Below, in pieces: positions 41,130 through 55,446 of a stretch of 64,000 nucleotides of DNA. Made by a program: the position numbers and the translations under genes. Under the pieces are notes generated by a model. It saw only the letters and a program-made list of their open reading frames with translations, made no database searches and was not told the origin of the DNA. The DNA is from Gammaproteobacteria bacterium. GTDB lineage: Bacteria > Pseudomonadota > Gammaproteobacteria > Pseudomonadales > Pseudohongiellaceae. The number at the start of each line of letters is the position of its first letter. Within the stretch, counting starts at the first letter, position 1. The DNA lies in contig JAQWQD010000013.1 in assembly GCA_029244985.1 (NCBI GenBank), positions 1 to 64,000 of the forward strand, in the 5' to 3' direction.

Positions 41130-43553
41130 ATGGCATATATGCATATTGGCAAAGATTTTACTCCACCAGATGTGCCGGGTAAGGTCACTGGTAGGATTAA
41201 GTATGCAGAAGATTACACTCGCGAGGGTATGGTCTATGCACGCTTACTAACAAGTCCAATTCCTCATGCACGGGTATTGGACATAGATGCGTCAGCGGCG
41301 CTGGCGATGGATGGTGTAATTGGCATACTCACAGCGGATGATGTTTATCCAGATGGAGAGCCGCAAAGCACTGGCTTGAAAATTCTCACTAACGAACCCA
41401 CTTTGGTCGGTGAGCCAATTCTTGCACTAGCGGCAGTGGACGAGAAAACTGCAGAGTCGGCCATCGCGCAGATTTCTGTTACTTTCGAAAGACTCCCTTT
41501 CGTTCTTGACCCCTTAGACAGCTTACAGCCAGGTGGTGCCGACGCTTATAATGGCGGCAACACGTTCGTTTTCCGTCAGGGATTTGTTGAAGAGAAGTGG
41601 ACTGCTGACCAAGTAGCGAGTTTTCGTGCTGGTAACGAACCAACAGCGGAACCGCAGCAGACTGTTGAATATGGTGATCTTGATGCGGCTTTTGGTGAAT
41701 CATCTTATGTTTATGAAGGAACCTTCACCAACGCAGGTTATCCGCACCATTCGATGGAACCACGCAGTGCATTAGCTTACTGGGAAGACGGCAAGCTATA
41801 CCTGCACGGTGGGTCGCAAAGCCTAACTGCTTTTGCTGATGGTATTGCCGGTATTATAGGTGTACCAAAAGAAGACTTAGTCTTCGTTAACGCAGCAACC
41901 GGTGGTGGTTTTGGTCAACGCGCCCGAGCAGGGTCGATCCCTGTTTATGCTGTTCCAGCGAAACTTTCCCAAAAAATTAATCGTCCAGTGATGATGCGTG
42001 CAACCCGCGAAGAAGAATTTACCTTTGGCGGTGCACGTCAGGGTCTTACTGGTTGGATTAAAGTTGGATTCAAGCCTGATGGCGTTATGGCAGCTTGCGA
42101 TCTTTGGATCGTGTCTGACAATGGCGGCAAAGGCGGGGGTGCAGACGCTTACTCAGCAGCAGATTGTATAAGTGTACTTTATCAAGCTGATGCAGTTCGT
42201 TTCCGTGGCACCGCTATTGGAACAAATACTGCACATCGTGGAGCCCAGCGTGGACCTGGTCAGAATCAGATCGCACCAATCATCTCTCCAATCTTGGATG
42301 TTGCGGCAGACGAACTTGGTGTTAGCCGGCTCGATATTCGCAAAATTAATGCGGCAATGACTGGTGATGTTGGCGGCCCACAGCGCACGCCATTTACTTC
42401 TGCCTATATGCCAGAGGCACTGGAGCAAGCTGCAGCTGAATTTGATTGGGAAGGTCGCCAATCGCGGCGTCGCCAGACGAACGGCAGCAAAGTAATAGGA
42501 CTCGGTATAGGTCAGGGCTATCACAATGCCGGTCGTTCAGGCATGGACGGAATTGTCATGATGGGTGCTGATGGACGACTTAAAATCCATAACGGAGTCG
42601 GAAATCTGGGTACTTATTCCTACGCATCAACTTCCCGAGCAGCTGCAGAAGTTCTGCAAATGCCTTGGGAGAGTTGCGATATCATCACTGGACGTACAGA
42701 TTTGCACTTACCTATTACCTCGCCACAGGATGGCAGCAACTCAATCTTCACGAACACCCGAACCTGCTATGGGGCAGCTCAGGATATGTTAACGAAGATG
42801 AAAGAGATTGCTGCGACAGACTTAGGTGGCGATCCTACTGACTACGACGTCTCTAATGAGCGCGTACATCAGATTGCTGATGAGTCAGTTGGCTACAGCT
42901 ACGCAGAAGTTGCGCAGCGAGCAATTGAACTAGGCGGTAAATATACTGGGAGCGCAGAGCTCCCTGAAGAACTAGCTGAGTGGACACAGATAGCAGTTTC
43001 CCGTTTGGAAGGCACTGGTTTTATGGGGATCTTCCACGACCCCCGCCACGAAGGTAACCCTCCAGGGTTCACCGTTACGGCTTGTGAAATCGAACTGGAT
43101 AAGGAAACCGGTAAGATAGATATCCTTGAGATGATCAGTATCGGTGAAGCCGGAACTATCATGCATCCTAAAGGCATGGATAACCAACTGGTCGGTGGTG
43201 CTGTTTGGGGTATTGGTTTGTCGGCGTACGAGCGTCATTTATACGATCCTCAAAATGGATTACCAGCAAGCACTGGTTACTGGCAGAGCAAGGTGCCAAC
43301 CTATCTCGATACACCGGTAAAAATAGAAACTGGCTGGGTGGATTTACCTGATCCTGAGAACCCAGTTGGTGCACGTGGTATTGGTGAGCCTTCTATGGGC
43401 TCAGTTTCCGCCGCTCTTACCGCAGCAATCACCGATGCACTAGATGGACACATCTTTGGTGCTTCGCCAATTACTGCAGACATGATCATTAACCACGTAG
43501 CAGGAACATCCGAAGAAGCGGTACCTCTTGCTCAGAACAATTTCCGAGGTTGA
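41130..43553 (+). CDS. Mo-hydroxylase molybdopterin-binding subunit
   Basis: 807 residues, full-length xanthine-dehydrogenase/aldehyde-oxidase large subunit. N-terminal GKVTGRIKYAEDY domain, the cofactor motif GGGFGQRA at about residue 253, and near the C terminus GARGIGEPSM, whose Glu is the catalytic base. No signal peptide of its own, so export would depend on the Tat signal of the FeS subunit. It is between the FeS and FAD genes, 1 base before the latter. The whole set is a three-subunit enzyme, as in PaoABC-type aldehyde oxidoreductases, but with a different gene order and with a cytochrome instead of a maturation factor. Confidence 0.93.
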   Translation: MAYMHIGKDFTPPDVPGKVTGRIKYAEDYTREGMVYARLLTSPIPHARVLDIDASAALAMDGVIGILTADDVYPDGEPQSTGLKILTNEPTLVGEPILALAAVDEKTAESAIAQISVTFERLPFVLDPLDSLQPGGADAYNGGNTFVFRQGFVEEKWTADQVASFRAGNEPTAEPQQTVEYGDLDAAFGESSYVYEGTFTNAGYPHHSMEPRSALAYWEDGKLYLHGGSQSLTAFADGIAGIIGVPKEDLVFVNAATGGGFGQRARAGSIPVYAVPAKLSQKINRPVMMRATREEEFTFGGARQGLTGWIKVGFKPDGVMAACDLWIVSDNGGKGGGADAYSAADCISVLYQADAVRFRGTAIGTNTAHRGAQRGPGQNQIAPIISPILDVAADELGVSRLDIRKINAAMTGDVGGPQRTPFTSAYMPEALEQAAAEFDWEGRQSRRRQTNGSKVIGLGIGQGYHNAGRSGMDGIVMMGADGRLKIHNGVGNLGTYSYASTSRAAAEVLQMPWESCDIITGRTDLHLPITSPQDGSNSIFTNTRTCYGAAQDMLTKMKEIAATDLGGDPTDYDVSNERVHQIADESVGYSYAEVAQRAIELGGKYTGSAELPEELAEWTQIAVSRLEGTGFMGIFHDPRHEGNPPGFTVTACEIELDKETGKIDILEMISIGEAGTIMHPKGMDNQLVGGAVWGIGLSAYERHLYDPQNGLPASTGYWQSKVPTYLDTPVKIETGWVDLPDPENPVGARGIGEPSMGSVSAALTAAITDALDGHIFGASPITADMIINHVAGTSEEAVPLAQNNFRG

Positions 43554-43554
43554 T

Positions 43555-44550
43555 ATGGTAGCCACATCACATGACGTAATGCCTGATATTGAGCTTTATC
43601 AGCCAGCTGATGAAGCCACAGCGCTGGACCTTGCGTCCAGGCTAGGTAACGAAGGTTGGCTACTAGGTGGTGGTCAGGACACTTATGGCTGGTTGAAAGA
43701 CCGGAATAAGACACCTGCAGCCATGATCGAGCTGACACAAATTGATGCTTGGAAAGGCATCAAGGAAATCAGCGATGGAATTGAAATCGGTGCAGTCACA
43801 ACCTTGACTGAAATCGCTAACAATCCCCTCGTCCAGTCCCGCTATGGTGTTTTAGCAAAAGCAGCGAGCGTGGTAGCAAGCCCTCAAATTCGTAACGTAG
43901 GTACGCTCGGCGGCAACCTTAATCAGGACGCTCGTTGTTGGTACTACCGTCGCGGACTAGATTGTTATCGAGCCGGCGGAAATATTTGCTATGCCGATTC
44001 ACCTGAAGGTCTTAATCGTGAGCATGCTTTATTTGGAGCAAGTCGCTGCGTTGCAGTTAGCCCTTCCGATACAGCGCCAGCCCTGGTCGCACTTGATGCA
44101 ACAATGGTTGTTTCAAGTTCCAGTGGCGAACGATTGATTCCAGCACAAGATTTTTTTGTTGGACCTGATCGTGATATTTTAAACATGACTGTGCTTAACG
44201 ACGATGAAATACTGACAGCGGTTAGAATTCCCAGCACTTGGGCGAATGCAGAGTTCTACTGGGAAAAAGTTGCCGATAGAAACGTTTGGGATTTTGCTCT
44301 TGTTAATATCGCTGCAGTTTTCAAAGTGTCCGGTGGAACAATTGAAGATTCGCGTTTTGCTTGTGGAGCCGTTGAGTGCACGCCGCGTCGGTTGGAAACA
44401 GTTGAAAGCGAAGTTCGCGGGCAACAGCGTTCTGAAGAGCTTGCGGTTCGCGCCGGTGAAATAGCAACAGATGGCGCACGTGCACTGAACTACAACAACT
44501 TCAAAATACCATTAATGCAAAACCTAGTTAAAAGAGCGATCCGAGGGTAA
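43555..44550 (+). CDS. Mo-hydroxylase FAD-binding subunit
   Basis: 331 residues. The N-terminal FAD/PCMH fold (LLGGGQDTYGWLKDR) and ASPQIRNVGTLGGNL are the standard FAD contacts. After these is an insertion with four cysteines (RCWYY, LDCYR, NICYA, SRCVAV), comparable in place with the loop that carries a [4Fe-4S] cluster in 4-hydroxybenzoyl-CoA reductase beta subunits. ATG 43555, one base after the Mo-subunit stop, is the start (GAGG upstream); the track's earlier start overlaps that gene. Electrons should pass from Mo over FeS to FAD and, in this operon, to the membrane cytochrome. Confidence 0.92.
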   Translation: MVATSHDVMPDIELYQPADEATALDLASRLGNEGWLLGGGQDTYGWLKDRNKTPAAMIELTQIDAWKGIKEISDGIEIGAVTTLTEIANNPLVQSRYGVLAKAASVVASPQIRNVGTLGGNLNQDARCWYYRRGLDCYRAGGNICYADSPEGLNREHALFGASRCVAVSPSDTAPALVALDATMVVSSSSGERLIPAQDFFVGPDRDILNMTVLNDDEILTAVRIPSTWANAEFYWEKVADRNVWDFALVNIAAVFKVSGGTIEDSRFACGAVECTPRRLETVESEVRGQQRSEELAVRAGEIATDGARALNYNNFKIPLMQNLVKRAIRG

Positions 44551-44605
44551 ACCTCGGTTCGTCTCCGCTAGCTGAAAAAACTAATTAGAATAAGAGGGTA
44601 GTACA

Positions 44606-45373
44606 GTGGGAGAAATAGTCCGCTATAAACGAGATGTTTGGGGTGAAGAAGTTATCCTCGGTGTTTCTTGGGATTTGCTCTACGTCGTTTTCATGGCCAT
44701 TGTCATTCTATTGATTGCACACGCAATTATTATGGCAGCACTGGCCAAGAAAAATTTAGACAGACCGACTGGGGACGGTCGACGCGTCGTGAGGCATGAG
44801 TCAATTGATCGCTTGTTTCACTGGTTAATGGCAGCGAGTATTCTGGTGCTGATTTTCACGGGTGTAGCACCTATTCTTGGGCTACGCGTCGCCTGGTTAG
44901 ATATTCACTGGATCAGTGGTCTGTTACTCACCTTTCTCGTTGTTGCGCATATAATTCGTGCATCATTCTGGCAAGACTTTAAATCCATGTTACTAATGCC
45001 GAAAGATTTTGCTGAACCATTCGATTCGTCTAGAAAGCCTGGTAAGTATTACTTTGAGCAGAAAGGTATGCATTGGGCAGTCACAGTTGTTGCCCTTGCA
45101 GTCATCGTGACTGGCGTTTTAATGTTCATGCAGATCGATTCGCCATTTTGGGATCGCACTAACAGCATGGCGGAAGATCAATTAGGGCTAGTTTTTTTGT
45201 TGCACGGTCTATCGACCCTAGCATTGGTAGCTCTGGCGGCAACGCACATCTATTTTGCGCTTCGTCCTGAAAAGATTTTTTACACCCGCTCTATGATTTC
45301 CGGATGGATGTCAGAAGACGAGATGGCAGCTAATCACGATACTGCAAAGTGGTCGCCGAAAGAAGCCGAGTAG
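44606..45373 (+). CDS. Membrane cytochrome b, FdnI/b561-like, of the Mo-hydroxylase operon
   Basis: 255 residues with five predicted membrane helices. Histidines sit as in formate-dehydrogenase-gamma/Ni-Fe hydrogenase cytochromes b: LFHWLMA, LDIHWIS, VVAHIIRA, GMHWAVT, LLHGLS and ATHIYF. It would carry electrons to the quinone pool. GTG start with AGAGGG 7 bases upstream. It is 55 bases behind the FAD subunit and has no other obvious donor, so an anchor and quinone link for the periplasmic hydroxylase is the simplest reading (inference). Confidence 0.87.
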   Translation: MGEIVRYKRDVWGEEVILGVSWDLLYVVFMAIVILLIAHAIIMAALAKKNLDRPTGDGRRVVRHESIDRLFHWLMAASILVLIFTGVAPILGLRVAWLDIHWISGLLLTFLVVAHIIRASFWQDFKSMLLMPKDFAEPFDSSRKPGKYYFEQKGMHWAVTVVALAVIVTGVLMFMQIDSPFWDRTNSMAEDQLGLVFLLHGLSTLALVALAATHIYFALRPEKIFYTRSMISGWMSEDEMAANHDTAKWSPKEAE

Positions 45374-45428
45374 TTGATTAATTATCAGAGCGCTTTTTTA
45401 TAAAGCTGCAGTATTTGGATAGTAGTAT

Positions 45429-45836
45429 ATGGATATAGAAGAAAGCATTGAGGCTATTGAGTCTGGTTATGAGTTTTTGTTAGCTTATGCGGCGCAGGGA
45501 AGGCCAGCTTCTGATGAGACAGGTGGACCCGGTCCTCATGCGAGACCCACTATCGAAGGTATGGCCTCTGCAATGAAACATGTTACAGAGGTTTTTGCCG
45601 ACAGTAATGATGATTTCGAACAACTTATTGCGCAGGACTGCAAGAAAGCCGGGGCGGCAATGGGCTTTATGTTGTCTCAGGAGAAGCTCGGTTCTGAAGT
45701 CGTCGATAATCTAAACGCATCGATTCATTTACGTGCTGTTCTTACCGATCTCTTTTTATACAGTGAAGCGCTAAGACCATTGGCTACTGAAGAAGAGAGT
45801 GGAGTCATGGCACATGATGCGATGAAGAAGCAGTAA
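45429..45836 (+). CDS. Hypothetical protein, fifth gene of the Mo-hydroxylase operon
   Basis: 135 residues, no signal peptide or membrane helix. Mostly helical, with MASAMKHVTEVF and LNASIHLRAVLTDLF segments and a Gly-Pro rich piece (TGGPGPHARPT) near residue 35. I do not recognise it; it is not XdhC/PaoD-like, whose members are larger and have a Rossmann region. It ends 35 bases before a strong terminator, which closes the operon. Possible accessory or maturation protein. Confidence 0.7.
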   Translation: MDIEESIEAIESGYEFLLAYAAQGRPASDETGGPGPHARPTIEGMASAMKHVTEVFADSNDDFEQLIAQDCKKAGAAMGFMLSQEKLGSEVVDNLNASIHLRAVLTDLFLYSEALRPLATEEESGVMAHDAMKKQ

Positions 45837-46913: not shown

Positions 46914-46948
46914 GTTTTCTCAAATTTGGAATGTAGTGGGTGGAAGCA

Positions 46949-48139
46949 ATGAGAGCCTTTGTATTGAACAGTATTTTTTATACCAGTATTTTTCTACCAA
47001 TGCTGATTCATCTGTCAGCGTCGGCACAACCTGATGATGCAGCTGGAGCATATTCGGCGGCTGACGGCGCTGCCGGCGCTAGTAGCTACGACGAGCCAAT
47101 CGGTACTGGTCTTTATGACACCAAATATGAGTCGCAGTTACTTAGTGGCACTTATCAATTAATCACTGACAGTTTGCGTTCGGGTGAAGGCTATTTCTCA
47201 GCTAACGGTGATCGTTTTATTTTTCAAAGCGAAGTGCCAAGTGATAATCCTTTCTATCAAATTTTTGTCCGAGACTTGGAGACTGGAGAAACAAATCGAG
47301 TATCCCCTGGCATAGGATTAACTACTTGCGCCTGGATACACCCCACAATGGATCGAGTGATGTTCTCATCGACACACGAAGATCCTGATGCTCTCGGGAA
47401 ACAAGCGGAAGAAATACAGATTCGAGGAAGTGGAATCGAGAGGGAATATGGTTGGGACTACGATCAGCACTATGATATCTACCAAGCCAATAGTGATGGC
47501 AGCGATATCGTTAATCTAACGCGTGCAGATGGTTATGATGCAGAAGGTTCGTATTCCGCCGATGGATCAAAGATCCTTTTCGCATCAAATCGCAATGCTT
47601 ATAATCGGACTCTTAGCCAAGCAGAGCAGCAGCTGTTTGACGACGACAGCTCCTACTTTATGGACTTGTACATGATGGATGCTGATGGTTCTAATGTTAA
47701 ACAACTAACCCATTCTCCAGGCTACGATGGTGGACCGTTCTTTAGTCCCGATAACACCAAAGTAGTCTGGCGCCGCTTTAATCCTGATGGTAATAGCGCA
47801 GAAATATGGACAATGGACATAGACGGTAGTAATCAGCGCCAACTCACCGCTGATGTGATGGTATCGTGGGGGCCTTATTTTCATCCTAGCGGTGATTACA
47901 TTATTTACTCCAGCAACATACTTGGCCATGCAAATTTCGAATTGTTTATGATTGATCCTGAAGGAGCCAATCCACCAGTAAGGGTAACTAATACTGAAGG
48001 CACTGATATTCTTCCGGTATTCTCTCCCGCTGGAGACAAATTAGCTTGGAGCACGACTCGCACTCCAGACGGCACTTCCCAGATTCATATGTCAGACTGG
48101 AACCATAGCCGTGCCTTGGAGATCCTTGGCCTCGATTAA
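46949..48139 (+). CDS. Secreted TolB-like beta-propeller protein
   Basis: 396 residues. Signal peptide ending near SASAQPDD; then a low-complexity Ala/Gly/Ser stretch and repeated PD40/WD40-type blades (YSADGSKILFASN, FSPDNTKVVWRR, FHPSGDYIIYSSN, FSPAGDKLAWSTT). No catalytic domain follows, so this is a lone propeller, likely a binding protein. ATG 46949 follows GGGTGGA; the track start (GTG 46940) is less well placed. 15 bases before the M1-M28 fusion gene, so the two are probably co-expressed. Confidence 0.82.
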   Translation: MRAFVLNSIFYTSIFLPMLIHLSASAQPDDAAGAYSAADGAAGASSYDEPIGTGLYDTKYESQLLSGTYQLITDSLRSGEGYFSANGDRFIFQSEVPSDNPFYQIFVRDLETGETNRVSPGIGLTTCAWIHPTMDRVMFSSTHEDPDALGKQAEEIQIRGSGIEREYGWDYDQHYDIYQANSDGSDIVNLTRADGYDAEGSYSADGSKILFASNRNAYNRTLSQAEQQLFDDDSSYFMDLYMMDADGSNVKQLTHSPGYDGGPFFSPDNTKVVWRRFNPDGNSAEIWTMDIDGSNQRQLTADVMVSWGPYFHPSGDYIIYSSNILGHANFELFMIDPEGANPPVRVTNTEGTDILPVFSPAGDKLAWSTTRTPDGTSQIHMSDWNHSRALEILGLD

Positions 48140-48154
48140 GTTGACTGAGCCTCG

Positions 48155-51100
48155 ATGAAGCGACTTTCTTTCTTCTTTTTTCTAATTATTAGTTTGCCAT
48201 CGATTGGATTCGGGCAGCCTCAGCCTCAGTTTGCCCAAACTGTCGAACTAGAATCAATACCCCCCATTCATCACAGCCTGAAGATATTGCTCGACCCGAT
48301 AGCGCGACAGATTACAGTTGAAGACACCATTAGATTCCCGGAAGAGTTTCAAGCTTCTTCAAGAACCTTTGAATTGAACAACAATCTAATCATTAGTGAA
48401 AATTCCGGTTCACTGCAGAAACTCTCCAACAATGTAACCGATGAAAGCATTGAGATTAATGCGACTGGTGGGCTTGCTGCGGCTACAGATGAATATTCTC
48501 TAACTTTATCTGCGAACAATAATGGCCAGGTCTTTTTTGCCTATAGTGGTTCTATCTATGACTTGGCAGAACAATCCAGTCCTGAATATGCTCAAAGCTT
48601 TTCTGAAACTTCAGGAATTATAGGAGAGCAAGGGGTTTATCTTAACCACGGTAGTGCTTGGGTGCCTATATTTGACAATGGGTTGGTCACGTTCGATTTA
48701 GAAGTTGAGTTTGCTAATACGGCATCCACTTGGAAAGTCGTAAGTCAAGGTGATCGAAATGGCGACAACGCTTGGGTAAATCATGACCCAATGGAAGAGA
48801 TCTATCTGATTGCCGCGAATTTCACTGAATATTCAGCCCAAGCGGATGATGTTGAAGTGCTAGCCTATCTGCGAACGCCGGATCCCAATTTGGCGACTAA
48901 ATATATGGATGCCACTGAAAGATATTTGAAACTTTATGAGCCTTTATTGGGTGCTTATCCCTATAGCAAGTTTGCATTGGTAGAAAATTTTTGGGAAACC
49001 GGCTATGGCATGCCGTCATTTACTTTACTTGGAGAACAAGTAATTCGTTTTCCATTTATTCTTGAGTCTTCTTACCCTCATGAGATTTTACATAATTGGT
49101 GGGGTAACGGCGTTTACCCCGATTATGAATCCGGTAACTGGAGTGAAGGCCTTACCGCCTATCTTGCCGATCACCTATTTCAAGAAATGAATGGAGTAGG
49201 CCACGAGTACCGAAAAGAAATGTTAGCGCGTTATAAAAACTATGCTGCCGAAAGATCAGATTTCGCCTTATCGCAGTTCACTTCCCGTAACTCAGCGGCA
49301 TCACAGGCAGTAGGCTATGGGAAAACGCTTATGCTTTGGCATATGCTGCGGGTCGAGTTGGGCGATGAGTTGTTTCTTAAAGGTCTGCGTAAGCTGTATT
49401 CTGATTACAAATATCAGCGTGCTTCTTTCTCTGATATTGAAGCGTTGTTTACCGAAATCAGCAGTATCGATCTATCAGATTTTTTTGATCAGTGGGTTAA
49501 TAGAATTGGTGCGCCAGAACTTTCATTGTCTGTTGAAGAAGCGACGGGAAATCGAGCACGCATTATGTTCGCACAGACTCAGTTCGGAGATCCTTACCAG
49601 TTAAGAGTACCAATTGCGCTTTATTACGAAGGTGAACCTGAACCAGAGATCTATGAAATTGCTTTATCACAAAAGCTCGAAGGTTTTTTTGCTGATGACT
49701 TCGAACGCTTGGAGGCAGTATTAGTTGATCCATATTTCGATGTGTTCCGTCAGTTAGATAGAGAAGAGACACCGCCTACAATCGGTGAATTGTTTGGTGC
49801 AAGTGAGATTACTTTTGTTCTACCAAGTTCAGAAAGGCAGCATTGGGTACAAATGACAGAAGCCTTTGGTTACGGTGTTGACGCGAATATTGTTTACGCT
49901 GATGATATCGAATCGATTCCTTCTGACCGTTCCGTCTGGATACTCGGCCGGGATAACCCGTTTATTGAAGTAGCGTACTCTACTACTGCACTTTATGGAG
50001 TATCCAGCTCTCCAGCCGGAGTAGTGATAGCTGGTAGTGAAGTTGAGTTTGAGAACCGAAGCACTGTTGTCATTGGGCGTCATCCGCAAGATCAGGAGTT
50101 AGCCGTCGGTTGGATTCTTGTAGAAGACATGATTGCCATGCCCGGCATGATCGAAAAATTACCCCATTATGGGAAATATTCTTATTTGAGTTTCATTGGC
50201 AGTGAGCCTACGAATGATGTGAAAGGCATATGGACTAGCCCTAATTCTCCTTTGCGATGGGAAAAACCAGGCCTATTAGCTGAGATAAATTGGGAATCTG
50301 TTCCTTCCATAACGCCATTGACCAAGTTGCCACCAAAATATTTACCTGGACAATTACTTCGTCATGCTAATGAACTTACTAGCAAAGCCATGGAAGGGAG
50401 AGCTATAAGCAGTAAAGGTATTGACAGAGCTGCTCTCTATATTGCTGATCAGTTTCGAATAGCCGGTTTGCAGACCACAAACGGCACTTATATTCAGCGC
50501 TGGCGGGATTCAATTTCTGGTTATCTTAATTCAGAATTAGCGAACGTGGTGGGCATTATACCAGGTACGAATCGTGAATTGAGTGCTAAGCCTATTGTTA
50601 TCGGAGCGCACTATGATCATCTTGGCGTTAATGATGAAGGCGAGTTTTATCCGGGAGCGGATGATAATGCTTCAGGCGTTAGTGTGCTTATAGAAGTTGC
50701 TGCGAAATTGGCCAGGGCCTTCACCCCTCAGCGCCCGATACTTTTTGTTGCCTTCAGCGGAGAAGAGCAGGGACTCTTGGGATCTCAACATTTCGTTGAG
50801 AATCCGCCTGGCGGATTTGTCACAGAAGATTTATTTGCCATGATTAATCTCGATGCAGTCGGCAGGTTGAATGGTCGTACTTTACAAGTGTTTGGAACCG
50901 AATCGGCTTACGAGTGGCCCTTCATGGCTCAAGGTATAGGCTTCACTATTGGTGTTGAGTCTGAGTTTCCTGAGGAAACAATAGCGAGCAGTGACCATGT
51001 AAGTTTTCTTAATGCTGGTGTGCCTGCAATTCATTTATTCAGTGGTACCCATTTAGACTATCATCAACCGACAGATACCCCGGAAAAGCTCGATTCAACT

Positions 51101-51487
51101 GGAATGTCTAGTATTGCACTGTGGTTAGAAGAAGCTGCTATTTATTTGGGGAATCGTGCCGATCCACTACGGGTGAATCTTGCAGGTGCTGAGACTATTG
51201 AAATAGCAAGTCCTCAAGGCGAGCGCGCTGCCAGCTTGGGCACCGTGCCCGACTTTGTCTATAGTGGCGAAGGCGTTCGCATCTCGGGGGTGACCCCAGA
51301 CGGTGCCGCTGAGGAAGCAGGCCTTCTGGCGGGAGATGTCTTACTTAATTACAACGGCGAACCTATTGCTGATATGCAATCCTATTCGAATTTTCTAAGG
51401 CAATCCGCACCAGGGGATAAAGTAAGTATTGAAGTATTTCGGGTCGACGAACAATTCTCTATCGACGTTACTTTAAAGGCTCGCTAG
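48155..51487 (+). CDS. Secreted fusion of M1-like and M28 peptidase domains with a PDZ domain
   Basis: 1110 residues with a signal peptide (to about residue 21). Domain 1 (to about 450) is M1-like: zinc site HEILHNWWGN at about 309 and Glu in WSEGLTAYL, matching HExxHxWxGN...EG; the GAMEN motif is replaced by GYGMPSF. A middle region (about 450-720) is not recognised. Domain 2 is a complete M28 zinc aminopeptidase: GAHYDHLG, GADDNASG, FSGEEQG, NLDAVGR and HLDYHQPTD hold all ligands. A C-terminal PDZ domain (about 1030-1105, ISGVTPDGAAEEAGLLAGD) follows. Each part is known, the combination looks unusual. Likely periplasmic or secreted peptide degradation. Confidence 0.9.
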   Translation: MKRLSFFFFLIISLPSIGFGQPQPQFAQTVELESIPPIHHSLKILLDPIARQITVEDTIRFPEEFQASSRTFELNNNLIISENSGSLQKLSNNVTDESIEINATGGLAAATDEYSLTLSANNNGQVFFAYSGSIYDLAEQSSPEYAQSFSETSGIIGEQGVYLNHGSAWVPIFDNGLVTFDLEVEFANTASTWKVVSQGDRNGDNAWVNHDPMEEIYLIAANFTEYSAQADDVEVLAYLRTPDPNLATKYMDATERYLKLYEPLLGAYPYSKFALVENFWETGYGMPSFTLLGEQVIRFPFILESSYPHEILHNWWGNGVYPDYESGNWSEGLTAYLADHLFQEMNGVGHEYRKEMLARYKNYAAERSDFALSQFTSRNSAASQAVGYGKTLMLWHMLRVELGDELFLKGLRKLYSDYKYQRASFSDIEALFTEISSIDLSDFFDQWVNRIGAPELSLSVEEATGNRARIMFAQTQFGDPYQLRVPIALYYEGEPEPEIYEIALSQKLEGFFADDFERLEAVLVDPYFDVFRQLDREETPPTIGELFGASEITFVLPSSERQHWVQMTEAFGYGVDANIVYADDIESIPSDRSVWILGRDNPFIEVAYSTTALYGVSSSPAGVVIAGSEVEFENRSTVVIGRHPQDQELAVGWILVEDMIAMPGMIEKLPHYGKYSYLSFIGSEPTNDVKGIWTSPNSPLRWEKPGLLAEINWESVPSITPLTKLPPKYLPGQLLRHANELTSKAMEGRAISSKGIDRAALYIADQFRIAGLQTTNGTYIQRWRDSISGYLNSELANVVGIIPGTNRELSAKPIVIGAHYDHLGVNDEGEFYPGADDNASGVSVLIEVAAKLARAFTPQRPILFVAFSGEEQGLLGSQHFVENPPGGFVTEDLFAMINLDAVGRLNGRTLQVFGTESAYEWPFMAQGIGFTIGVESEFPEETIASSDHVSFLNAGVPAIHLFSGTHLDYHQPTDTPEKLDSTGMSSIALWLEEAAIYLGNRADPLRVNLAGAETIEIASPQGERAASLGTVPDFVYSGEGVRISGVTPDGAAEEAGLLAGDVLLNYNGEPIADMQSYSNFLRQSAPGDKVSIEVFRVDEQFSIDVTLKAR

Positions 51488-51667: not shown

Positions 51668-51912
51668 ATCCGGCCTCCTCTGACCTTGATTCTTAACATT
51701 AATTACAACACATCAATTGGCTATCAATGGGTCATGAAAAAGACAAAATAGAGAAGAATTCTGATGAATCATGGCAATCGTTATCTGATTAGATTTTGCG
51801 CTGACTAGCCTTTAACCAAGAGACAAATGCAACTAATTGTTGCTATTTGAGCAAGACTACGCAGATTCCGTTATATTTCGGCACGTCACAAATTCATGCA
51901 CTGAGGGTACTT

Positions 51913-54324
51913 GTGTCAATCCTTAAAAATGTTTCGCAATTTTGTAATTTAATGGTGATTAGCGTTGTTTCTTTTTCGAGCGTGCAATCTATCGCACAAT
52001 TGCCTCTTCCGCGCATAACTCAAGTCGAAGAGGGTGATATCAATATTTTGCTTGACGGCTTTGTCGACGAACCTGTTTGGCAAAGTCTTCCTGTTATCGA
52101 TGGCATGAAAATTACTGATCCAGACACACTGGAAGACGCGCCATATAGGACTGAAATTCGTTTCTTCTATACGGAGCGAGGTATGTATTTTTCTATGGTG
52201 AACCACCAACCTGCTGACTCTCTTATCGCTCGAATGACAAACCGGGACGCATCCCCACTTTTGCCCGTGAACGATGGGATAGGAGTAGTGATCGATGCTT
52301 CTGGAGATGGCCGCTACGGTTATGGTGTGCGGCTTGGTCTTGGCGACAGCATGACCGATATGTCCTTGCTTCCAGAGCGTCAATTGAATTTGCAGTGGGA
52401 CGGGGCTTGGGATGGCCGAACTCAGATTATCGATGAAGGTTGGAGCGCAGAGATTTTCGTACCTTGGTCGATGATGCCGCTACCGCAAGCAGGAAATACG
52501 CGCAGAATAGGCCTTGCGTTTATCCGGAATATGATGGGGAGAGGGGAACTTTGGGGTACGCCGGCATTACCCCGAACAGAAAATGTCTTCTTGAGCGGTT
52601 TCCAAAAATACGAATTAAGTGAAATTAAGCCGCGTCGGCAACTGACTATCTATCCTTTCATTTCAACAGATTTTGATGGGGTTAGCCATGATGCGGAGAA
52701 TAAAATTGGCACCGATATCTACTGGCGACCGACTACCAACACATTGTTATCTGGTACATTAAATCCAGATTTTGGAACGGTAGAGTCCGATGATGTAGTT
52801 GTTAACTTAACGGCTTTCGAGACTTTCTTTCCAGAAAAAAGGACTTTTTTTCTAGAGGGACAAGATGTGTTTAATACCAGCCCACGGTCGATAGCTCAGA
52901 ATGTCAGAGGGCCAGGTGGCCCAATTACTCTTTTAAATACAAGAAGGATTGGGGGCGCATCGAGATATTCAGTTCCTAATGGATTAGAGGTTAGACCTAC
53001 AGATTTGAGCCAGCCTACGGATTTGCTAGGGGCTGTTAAATTTACCGGCCAAAATGGGAATTTGCGATACGGGACATTAATAGCGTCGGAAGATGATTCT
53101 GAAATTCGCGGTACCTTATCGGATGGTACGAGGGTGAATCTTCAAGCGACTGGAAGCGACTATACAGTGGGAAGATTATTATATGAAGATACTAGTAGTG
53201 GAGGTAGGCGTTCGATTGGATGGATGGGTACAAATGTTTCTCACCCTGATATCGATTCAACGGTAAATGCAATTGATGCACATTATTTTTCGGCTGATCA
53301 GCGCTGGGTAGTGGATGGTCAGTTTATGCACAGCGATGTAAATGGAGAAACTGGTACTGGCTTTTTGGGCGATATTAGTTATATACCTAGGCGTGGGGTG
53401 CAACATATCCTGACTTCTACTTATATCGATGATGAGTTCGATATGAACGATCTTGGTTTTATTTCGAGAAACTCGCAGATGAACCTAGATTATAATTTCG
53501 TCCTCACCGAATCGAACGTGCCTGGTCTGACATCACGGATGACCATGCTTACTTCTGTTAACCAATACAATACTGAAGGGGATTCTGTATTATCAGGCCA
53601 ATTTGTTGGAAGAACTTGGAATTATTTAAACAATGATAGTTTTGATGTGACGCTGACGTACTTTCCCAAGCGGGTCGATGACCGACTTGGCAGAGGTACG
53701 GGTACTTTTCGTATTCCTGAGCGTTTTGGAGTCCGGTCTAATTACAGTACTGATCCGGCTAAAAAAGTTGCTTGGAAACTTAATCTAGAAGCTAGCCAAG
53801 AAGACTTGGGCCCGAAAAAAATAACTAGTGGGTTGGGAATTGTGTGGCGCCCTGATGATCGTTTTTCGTTTGATCTTGCGCTGAATTATACCGACCAAGA
53901 AGCTTTGCTTGTTCACCAGGGGAATGGGAATTACACGAGTTTCGAGGCGCATCAATGGGCTCCAAAACTTCAGTCGAACTTCTTCATCTCTGCGAAGCAA
54001 CAATTTCGAATTAGCATGCAGTGGAATTCTTTGAAAGCATTCGAAGACCGTTTCTGGCAAGTAAATCCGGGGCGCCTAAAGCATCTGAGTTCGGTAGCTA
54101 ATCCTGATAATGAGCCTGATAACTTTGTAATTAGCCGACTGACTTTCCAGGCAAGATATCGCTGGGAAATTGCCCCACTGTCTGACCTTTTTATTGTATA
54201 TACACGGGGGTCTAATTTGCCTAGCAATAATTTTTCCACATTTCAGGACTTGTTCGAGCAATCTTGGAATGACAGTATAGTGGACAGCTTCGCAATTAAA
54301 CTCCGTTATCGCTTTGGCAGTTAG
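51913..54324 (+). CDS. DUF5916 outer-membrane protein with CBM9-like domain
   Basis: 803 residues. Signal peptide ending QSIAQ; N-terminal CBM9-like domain (ILLDGFVDEPVWQSLP, about residues 30-220) followed by a long beta-barrel ending in LRYRFGS. RTFFLEGQDVF is a conserved DUF5916 motif. Members occur in marine bacteria and are taken as outer-membrane proteins of unknown cargo. The track starts at TTG 51847 without a ribosome site; GTG 51913 has GAGGG 6 bases upstream and starts a normal signal peptide, so I prefer it. The upstream 245 bases contain nothing else I can support. Confidence 0.85.
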   Translation: MSILKNVSQFCNLMVISVVSFSSVQSIAQLPLPRITQVEEGDINILLDGFVDEPVWQSLPVIDGMKITDPDTLEDAPYRTEIRFFYTERGMYFSMVNHQPADSLIARMTNRDASPLLPVNDGIGVVIDASGDGRYGYGVRLGLGDSMTDMSLLPERQLNLQWDGAWDGRTQIIDEGWSAEIFVPWSMMPLPQAGNTRRIGLAFIRNMMGRGELWGTPALPRTENVFLSGFQKYELSEIKPRRQLTIYPFISTDFDGVSHDAENKIGTDIYWRPTTNTLLSGTLNPDFGTVESDDVVVNLTAFETFFPEKRTFFLEGQDVFNTSPRSIAQNVRGPGGPITLLNTRRIGGASRYSVPNGLEVRPTDLSQPTDLLGAVKFTGQNGNLRYGTLIASEDDSEIRGTLSDGTRVNLQATGSDYTVGRLLYEDTSSGGRRSIGWMGTNVSHPDIDSTVNAIDAHYFSADQRWVVDGQFMHSDVNGETGTGFLGDISYIPRRGVQHILTSTYIDDEFDMNDLGFISRNSQMNLDYNFVLTESNVPGLTSRMTMLTSVNQYNTEGDSVLSGQFVGRTWNYLNNDSFDVTLTYFPKRVDDRLGRGTGTFRIPERFGVRSNYSTDPAKKVAWKLNLEASQEDLGPKKITSGLGIVWRPDDRFSFDLALNYTDQEALLVHQGNGNYTSFEAHQWAPKLQSNFFISAKQQFRISMQWNSLKAFEDRFWQVNPGRLKHLSSVANPDNEPDNFVISRLTFQARYRWEIAPLSDLFIVYTRGSNLPSNNFSTFQDLFEQSWNDSIVDSFAIKLRYRFGS

Positions 54325-54429
54325 TCGAGGTAGCTCTAGAGTAAATCCTAATCGCTGTGTAAACTATTAGTCATAAATAGCGATAAACACCGACTTCAGG
54401 CATAATTGTTGATAGCTATAGGTGAAAGT

Positions 54430-55446
54430 ATGCGTAGAATATTTCTTGCTAGTCTTATGGTTTCCATATTGATTACTTCTTCTTTATCAGCTGCAGACAA
54501 AATCGTTATTGCTCACCGCGGCGCGAGTGGCTATTTACCTGAACACACCCTAGAAGCTAAAGCCTTGGCCTATGGTATGGGTGCCGACTACATTGAACAA
54601 GATGTAGTCCTGACTAAAGATGACCACCTAATCGTTTTACACGATATCACGCTTGACAGAACCACTGATGTAGCAAGTCAATTTCCAGAACGCGTTCGAG
54701 ATGATGGTCGATTCTATGCGATTGACTTTAGTCTGGAAGAAATTCGTACACTGAATGTCAGCGAAAGTTTTCAAATTCGCGATGGTGAGAAAGTTCAAGG
54801 ATATGAGAATAGATTTCCCATGGGCTCATCTTCCTTTCGTATATCAACCTTTGAAGAAGAAATTCAGCTTATTCAGGGACTCAATAAATCTACTGGCGGT
54901 GATATCGGTATCTATCCTGAAATAAAGCAACCAGAGTTTCATCGAGAAGCCGGCAGAGATATTAGTACGGCAGTTATAAATATGCTGAAGCGTTACGGTT
55001 ATGCTACCAAGCAAGACAAAGTTTTCCTCCAGACGTTTAGTTTTTCTGAACTGGAAATCATCAAGCAAGAAATCTTACCCCAAGCGGGTATTGACATAAA
55101 TCTTGTTCAATTGATTGGCGGCGGGCCTTCTTATGCTTGGATGCTAGAGGCTGACGGCATGAATAAGCTTGCTATTTTCGCTGATGGTATTGGGCCAGAG
55201 AAAACCCTTGTAATCGGTCGCTCTTCGACGCAATCTGAGTTAGAGATTACACCTTTGGTTGAAAGAGCTCATGCTGCAGGCTTGCAAGTACACCCTTATA
55301 CATATCGATTAGATCCTGGCCAAGTGCCTAGCTATGCCAGTGATTTCGGTGATTTATTACAAAAACACTATTTTGAAGCGGGCGTTGATGGATTGTTTAC
55401 AGATTTTCCTGACAGAGCAGTAAAGTTTTTAGAATCTGCCTGGTAA
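54430..55446 (+). CDS. glpQ: Periplasmic glycerophosphodiester phosphodiesterase
   Basis: 338 residues with a signal peptide (RRIFLASLMVS...SLSAAD). Catalytic pattern IAHRGASGYLPEHTLEA, then YIEQDVVLTKDDHLIVLHD, the His-Arg and Glu/Asp sites of GDPD enzymes, with the extended GlpQ-type region between. It cleaves glycerophosphodiesters to glycerol-3-phosphate and an alcohol. ATG 54430 with AGGTGA upstream is the start, not the track's TTG. Single gene. Confidence 0.93.
   Translation: MRRIFLASLMVSILITSSLSAADKIVIAHRGASGYLPEHTLEAKALAYGMGADYIEQDVVLTKDDHLIVLHDITLDRTTDVASQFPERVRDDGRFYAIDFSLEEIRTLNVSESFQIRDGEKVQGYENRFPMGSSSFRISTFEEEIQLIQGLNKSTGGDIGIYPEIKQPEFHREAGRDISTAVINMLKRYGYATKQDKVFLQTFSFSELEIIKQEILPQAGIDINLVQLIGGGPSYAWMLEADGMNKLAIFADGIGPEKTLVIGRSSTQSELEITPLVERAHAAGLQVHPYTYRLDPGQVPSYASDFGDLLQKHYFEAGVDGLFTDFPDRAVKFLESAW

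Follow-up and report, generated by a model that had tools for sequence, protein, structure and literature searches.

The window, that is, the entire stretch of 64,000 nucleotides analysed here, encodes an exported beta-propeller protein and, immediately downstream on the same strand, a fusion of an M1-like module, an M28 peptidase and a PDZ domain. The key features are listed below.

46940..48139, plus strand: exported beta-propeller protein of 399 aa, the candidate partner of the fusion (four PD40 matches, AF2, Foldseek)
48155..51487, plus strand: fusion gene encoding signal peptide, M1-like module, M28 peptidase and PDZ (a single 1110-aa ORF)
48155..48214, plus strand: predicted Sec-type signal peptide of the fusion, approximately residues 1-20, without a lipobox (sequence; motif scan of 108 aligned relatives)
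48263..50257, plus strand: M1-like module, residues 37-701 (M1 fold by AF2 and Foldseek; solo protein in other genomes)
48983..49033, plus strand: conserved loop ENFWETGYGMPSFTLLG (residues 277-293) replacing GxMEN, with YGMPS at 284-288 (alignment conservation)
49079..49147, plus strand: zinc site HEILH-x17-E (H309, E310, H313, E331), invariant in aligned fusions and solo proteins
49316..49318, plus strand: presumed catalytic tyrosine Y388 (conservation; alignment with the 'YxK' tyrosine of solved M1 enzymes)
49775..50257, plus strand: alpha/beta region, residues 541-701, with the motif KLPHYGKYSYL, part of the M1-like module
50372..51157, plus strand: M28 peptidase domain, approximately residues 740-1001, with ligands H819, D836, E870/E871, D900 and H970 (Pfam, conservation)
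51245..51484, plus strand: C-terminal PDZ of the HtrA type, approximately residues 1031-1110 (domain searches)

The frame of the fusion gene is uninterrupted, and its product matches the Pfam families Peptidase_M1 (residues 309-447, 40.9 bits against a cut-off of 27.7), Peptidase_M28 (797-988, 138.8 bits) and PDZ_6 (1043-1094), the latter two in one chain as in the PDZ-linked Zn-exopeptidases (ZEP). Residues 541-701 have no Pfam match and contain the strongly conserved KLPHYGKYSYL motif. The AF2 model of the fusion has a mean pLDDT of 80.1 and a pTM of 0.68. A lipobox-like motif is present in just 6 of 108 aligned fusion and M1-like relatives, where it looked incidental, and the signal peptide indicates that the product is most likely exported, whether periplasmic or secreted. 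The first-pass annotation of a single exported protein with M1-like, M28 and PDZ domains is thus borne out, as is the placement of the propeller gene, which ends at 48139, 15 bases before the fusion.

The propeller protein consists of a signal peptide, a low-confidence linker extending to about residue 60 and a propeller, read here as six-bladed, with four PD40 matches in Pfam; the AF2 model has a pLDDT of 83.1. In Foldseek, this fold matches the propellers of TolB and of S9 peptidases (DPP IV, acylaminoacyl peptidase). However, the score of the protein against the TolB family TIGR02800 is 104 bits, far under the cut-off of 343, and a Pfam scan found no TolB N-terminal domain. The label "TolB-like" accordingly holds for the fold and fails for family membership. 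Unlike S9 peptidases, the propeller protein carries no S9 catalytic domain, and no S41-like serine catalytic domain was found by Pfam scan in either the propeller protein or the fusion.

Several neighbouring genes are conserved together with the locus in the genus. Upstream, these are xanthine dehydrogenase (XDH)-like genes (41130-44550), a gene for a cytochrome b-like membrane protein (44606-45373) and a small ORF (all within 41130-45836). Downstream, the genes for a DUF5916 protein (51847-54324) and then a glycerophosphodiester phosphodiesterase (GDPD)-like protein (54406-55446) are kept in most genus loci. Two XDH-like genes are also located near the fusion at one locus from a different family (L129).

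The M1-like half matches M1 enzymes in fold (AF2 model, Foldseek E 1.1e-20) and scores above the Pfam cut-off. With M1 aminopeptidases, such as PepN, ERAP1, LTA4H and the Tricorn-interacting factor F3, it also shares the HExxH...E ligands and the catalytic tyrosine, but it differs from them in the x17 rather than x18 spacing of the zinc motif, in having YGMPS instead of the exopeptidase motif GxMEN, and in the alpha/beta region 541-701, which is followed by M28 and PDZ. In an alignment of 18 solo proteins with 70 genus and 20 distant fusions, HExxH retains its two His and its Glu without exception; the third ligand, E331, never varies either, its distance from the second His is x17 in every member, and YGMPS is nearly invariant. 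The missing position appears as a one-residue gap when the zinc motif is aligned with those of solved M1 enzymes. Y388, which aligns with the M1 catalytic tyrosine, is invariant except for one ambiguous residue; the loop 282-287 is modelled by AF2 with low confidence. Canonical M1 enzymes use the Glu of GxMEN at the peptide N-terminus, and the change to YGMPS therefore places Pro in its stead. The M1 consensus is GXMEN-x22-38-HEXXH-x18-E, and some other M1 relatives also lack the full GXMEN (PMC2241622), so that aminopeptidase activity is not excluded by the missing motif alone. By its sequence, the M1-like half falls outside the canonical M1 aminopeptidases.

The M28 domain has all the co-catalytic metal ligands and the EE pair, including the catalytic Glu, of M28 aminopeptidases such as Vibrio leucyl aminopeptidase and YwaD (Pfam, alignment); unlike these enzymes, it sits behind an M1-like module and is followed by PDZ. 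All its ligands are conserved, with isolated exceptions among genus sequences, and it is probably a zinc aminopeptidase. The metal ligands of both modules are conserved across 89 distinct fusions, indicating two conserved metal sites, M1-like and M28, in one polypeptide. The initial description, two zinc aminopeptidase families fused with both metal sites intact, stands with respect to the Pfam matches and the ligands, but has to be qualified for the M1-like half, with its altered spacing and replaced GxMEN.

Homologues of the fusion were detected in nearly all genomes of the same genus that were searched, usually at full length and in a single frame; most of the shorter matches are at contig ends. 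Named records account for 76 loci; they are mainly gammaproteobacterial MAGs, with OM182, Pseudohongiella and Pseudomonadales among their labels. About twenty more fusions, with 38-45% identity, came from 369 evenly sampled genomes of the class and are patchily distributed among some 14 other gammaproteobacterial families; in the sampled families of the same order other than its own, the fusion was not found. Within this genus, the architecture is without doubt widespread, and public protein databases must contain it. The M1-like module without the fusion, in proteins of about 690-820 aa, is encoded in approximately 35 of the 369 genomes, and such solo modules are also present in other classes of the phylum. 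In the tree of this module, which is limited by long branches, fused and solo forms are interleaved and the supported branches force at least 3 label changes, disfavouring a single origin of the fusion. Given this interleaving, the M1-like half can do without the fusion.

The propeller gene is located upstream of the fusion on the same strand, mostly at most 75 bases away, in 83 of the 85 genus loci whose upstream sequence is long enough (since some of the loci L001-L020 are duplicates of later ones, the independent genomes number fewer than 85); the genomes of the two exceptions encode no propeller at E<=1e-10. Next to the distant fusions, the propeller gene is adjacent downstream (L121, L122, L123, L125 and L128), upstream as a partial gene (L135) or divergent (L131 and L136), and in the seven genomes where it scores E<=1e-15, it is the sole such gene genome-wide. 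Thus, the co-occurrence of the two genes, which the first-pass annotation had proposed to check, holds within the genus and beside many distant fusions. There are exceptions to the coupling: at the thresholds used, no propeller was found in the fusion genomes G109, G409, G093 and G235 or in those of L073, L095 and L076, most of which are drafts.

A search of the 369 class genomes with the M28-PDZ part alone detected four proteins that combine M28 and PDZ without the M1-like module. Two of these (G303 and G406) have the order propeller-M28-PDZ in one chain, with a propeller 55% identical to that of the window; the third (G230) has the reverse order, M28-PDZ-propeller; in the fourth (G399), the propeller and M28-PDZ parts sit at the ends of contigs, as expected of a single gene split in two. 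A fifth M28-PDZ match (G268) is cut by a contig end. The fused propeller/M28-PDZ proteins carry a PA-like region that is absent from the window protein. Such natural fusions, in both orders and with the PA-like region, are located as follows.

L216:3662-6946, plus strand: propeller/M28-PDZ fusion
L189:3550-6579, minus strand: propeller/M28-PDZ fusion
L215:3175-6180, minus strand: propeller/M28-PDZ fusion

Two loci from one genus, L136 (genome G257) and L143 (genome G128), have the same flanking genes. L136 encodes the propeller and the fusion, whereas L143 retains a 744-aa M1-like protein and lacks the propeller that sits between the flanking genes in L136; no propeller was found in the genome of L143 at E<=1e-15. 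Immediately after the stop codon of the M1-like gene, L143 contains the following feature.

L143:8187-8356: short remnants of the beginning of M28 and the end of PDZ, in collinear order

Because these matches are short (best E ~1e-3), their interpretation as traces of a deletion draws on collinearity in addition to score. As the remnants indicate, this pair shows a joint loss of M28-PDZ and propeller that spared the M1-like part, and at least one solo M1-like form is a reduced fusion.

M28-PDZ is present in 9 of the 10 genomes with a strong propeller match (E<=1e-40) compared to 27 of 369 overall (Fisher p 1.4e-10, ignoring shared ancestry and counting the fused propeller/M28-PDZ proteins), and 13 solo-M1 genomes without M28-PDZ have no propeller at E<=1e-15. 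Together, the gene fusions in two orders, the joint loss and the co-occurrence identify the M28-PDZ half as the most likely partner of the propeller, and support the view that propeller and M28-PDZ function as a single unit, to which the M1-like module, a unit of its own, was joined. The original suggestion of the propeller as a partner gains good support in this more specific form.

In 15 loci, five of them fusions, the M1-like gene adjoins, often divergently, a gene for a ChaN/Tiki-superfamily protein with a C-terminal PDZ (L141, L144, L145, L150-L154, L156 and L160, and the fusion loci L122, L125, L128, L129 and L135). In the window's genome, a ChaN-like gene is on another contig. No separate M28-PDZ gene was found beside the solo M1-like genes; a ChaN/Tiki-PDZ gene is often there instead. 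The combinations of PDZ with ChaN and of PDZ with M28 (ZEP) are both catalogued as uncharacterised families in the relevant part of PMC6411480. The fusion shares the M28 and PDZ combination with ZEP; the description of ZEP in that part mentions neither an M1-like module nor a propeller partner.

In TolB and S9 peptidases, propellers serve to bind partners or to limit access, and, by analogy, the propeller encoded beside the fusion might have either role. In archaea, the Tricorn protease and its M1 factors F2 and F3 bring propeller, PDZ and M1 peptidases into one peptide-degrading system. The fusion-propeller pair has this combination in common with Tricorn, by analogy only, and differs from it in having one propeller rather than two and no detectable S41-type serine peptidase.

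We propose, with a probability of about 0.6, that the fusion is an exported dual metallopeptidase, with the propeller serving M28-PDZ, and that it carries out a two-step processing of oligopeptides outside the cytoplasm. The propeller would dock on the M28-PDZ half and filter or deliver peptides, much as S9 peptidases use theirs to limit access; the PDZ would bind the C-termini of substrates or partners; and the M1-like site would cut a different set of bonds from the M28 site. All these components would belong to one assembly, plausibly for protein scavenging. Both sites may plausibly act jointly or in sequence on one peptide.

Less probable, but the strongest competitor, is the possibility that the M1-like and M28-PDZ halves are separate activities, combined in one polypeptide for co-expression, such that the propeller serves M28-PDZ only and the M1-like half does another job, for example, acting as an endopeptidase or, with the ChaN/Tiki-PDZ protein, processing one specific substrate. 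The solo M1-like modules without an adjacent M28 in many genomes, the frequent ChaN/Tiki-PDZ neighbour, the replaced GxMEN and altered metal spacing, and the survival of the M1-like part after the loss of M28-PDZ and the propeller in G128 are all compatible with this scenario. However, almost every genus genome and many families maintain an intact fusion, so that the physical link seems to bring an advantage. A more elaborate and less likely version of the two-step assembly would be a bacterial, exported, Tricorn-like complex without the serine peptidase, in which a propeller gate would dock on an M28-PDZ unit linked to an M1-like enzyme from a subfamily of its own (x17, YGMPS), with the sites acting sequentially.

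It appears improbable that the M1-like site has no aminopeptidase function, being a pseudo-enzyme or binding domain, with M28 alone catalytic. The absence of GxMEN, the x17 spacing and the low-confidence active-site loop fit such a role, but the three zinc ligands, the general base and, bar that ambiguous residue, the tyrosine are invariant family-wide, whereas pseudo-enzymes usually lose some catalytic residues; published M1 relatives likewise lack the full GxMEN (PMC2241622). Inherited synteny without functional meaning is a very unlikely cause of the propeller adjacency and is already largely refuted: the entire neighbourhood, including XDH-like, cytochrome b-like, desulfhydrase-like, DUF5916 and GDPD-like genes, is indeed conserved within the genus, but other families differ in arrangement, propeller and M28-PDZ are fused in two orders and are lost jointly, and their co-occurrence has p ~1e-10. 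A frameshift or assembly error joining two separate genes, which the first-pass annotation named as a possible refutation, is practically dismissed, with no support found and the same single full-length frame recurring in many independent assemblies, chromosome-level ones included.

A search of open-access literature turned up no description of the M1+M28+PDZ architecture. Protein scavenging by uncultured marine Gammaproteobacteria (HTCC2089/Pseudohongiellaceae) has been suspected, with genomic context of little help (PMC8371827). Here, gene fusion and joint loss point to one specific peptidase-propeller pair that is open to expression and assay, and the M1-like subfamily poses the question of how an M1 fold might work without GxMEN and with a shortened metal motif. 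The exported peptidase fusion and its propeller are an uncharacterised, directly testable candidate for a peptide-degrading assembly in a marine gammaproteobacterium.
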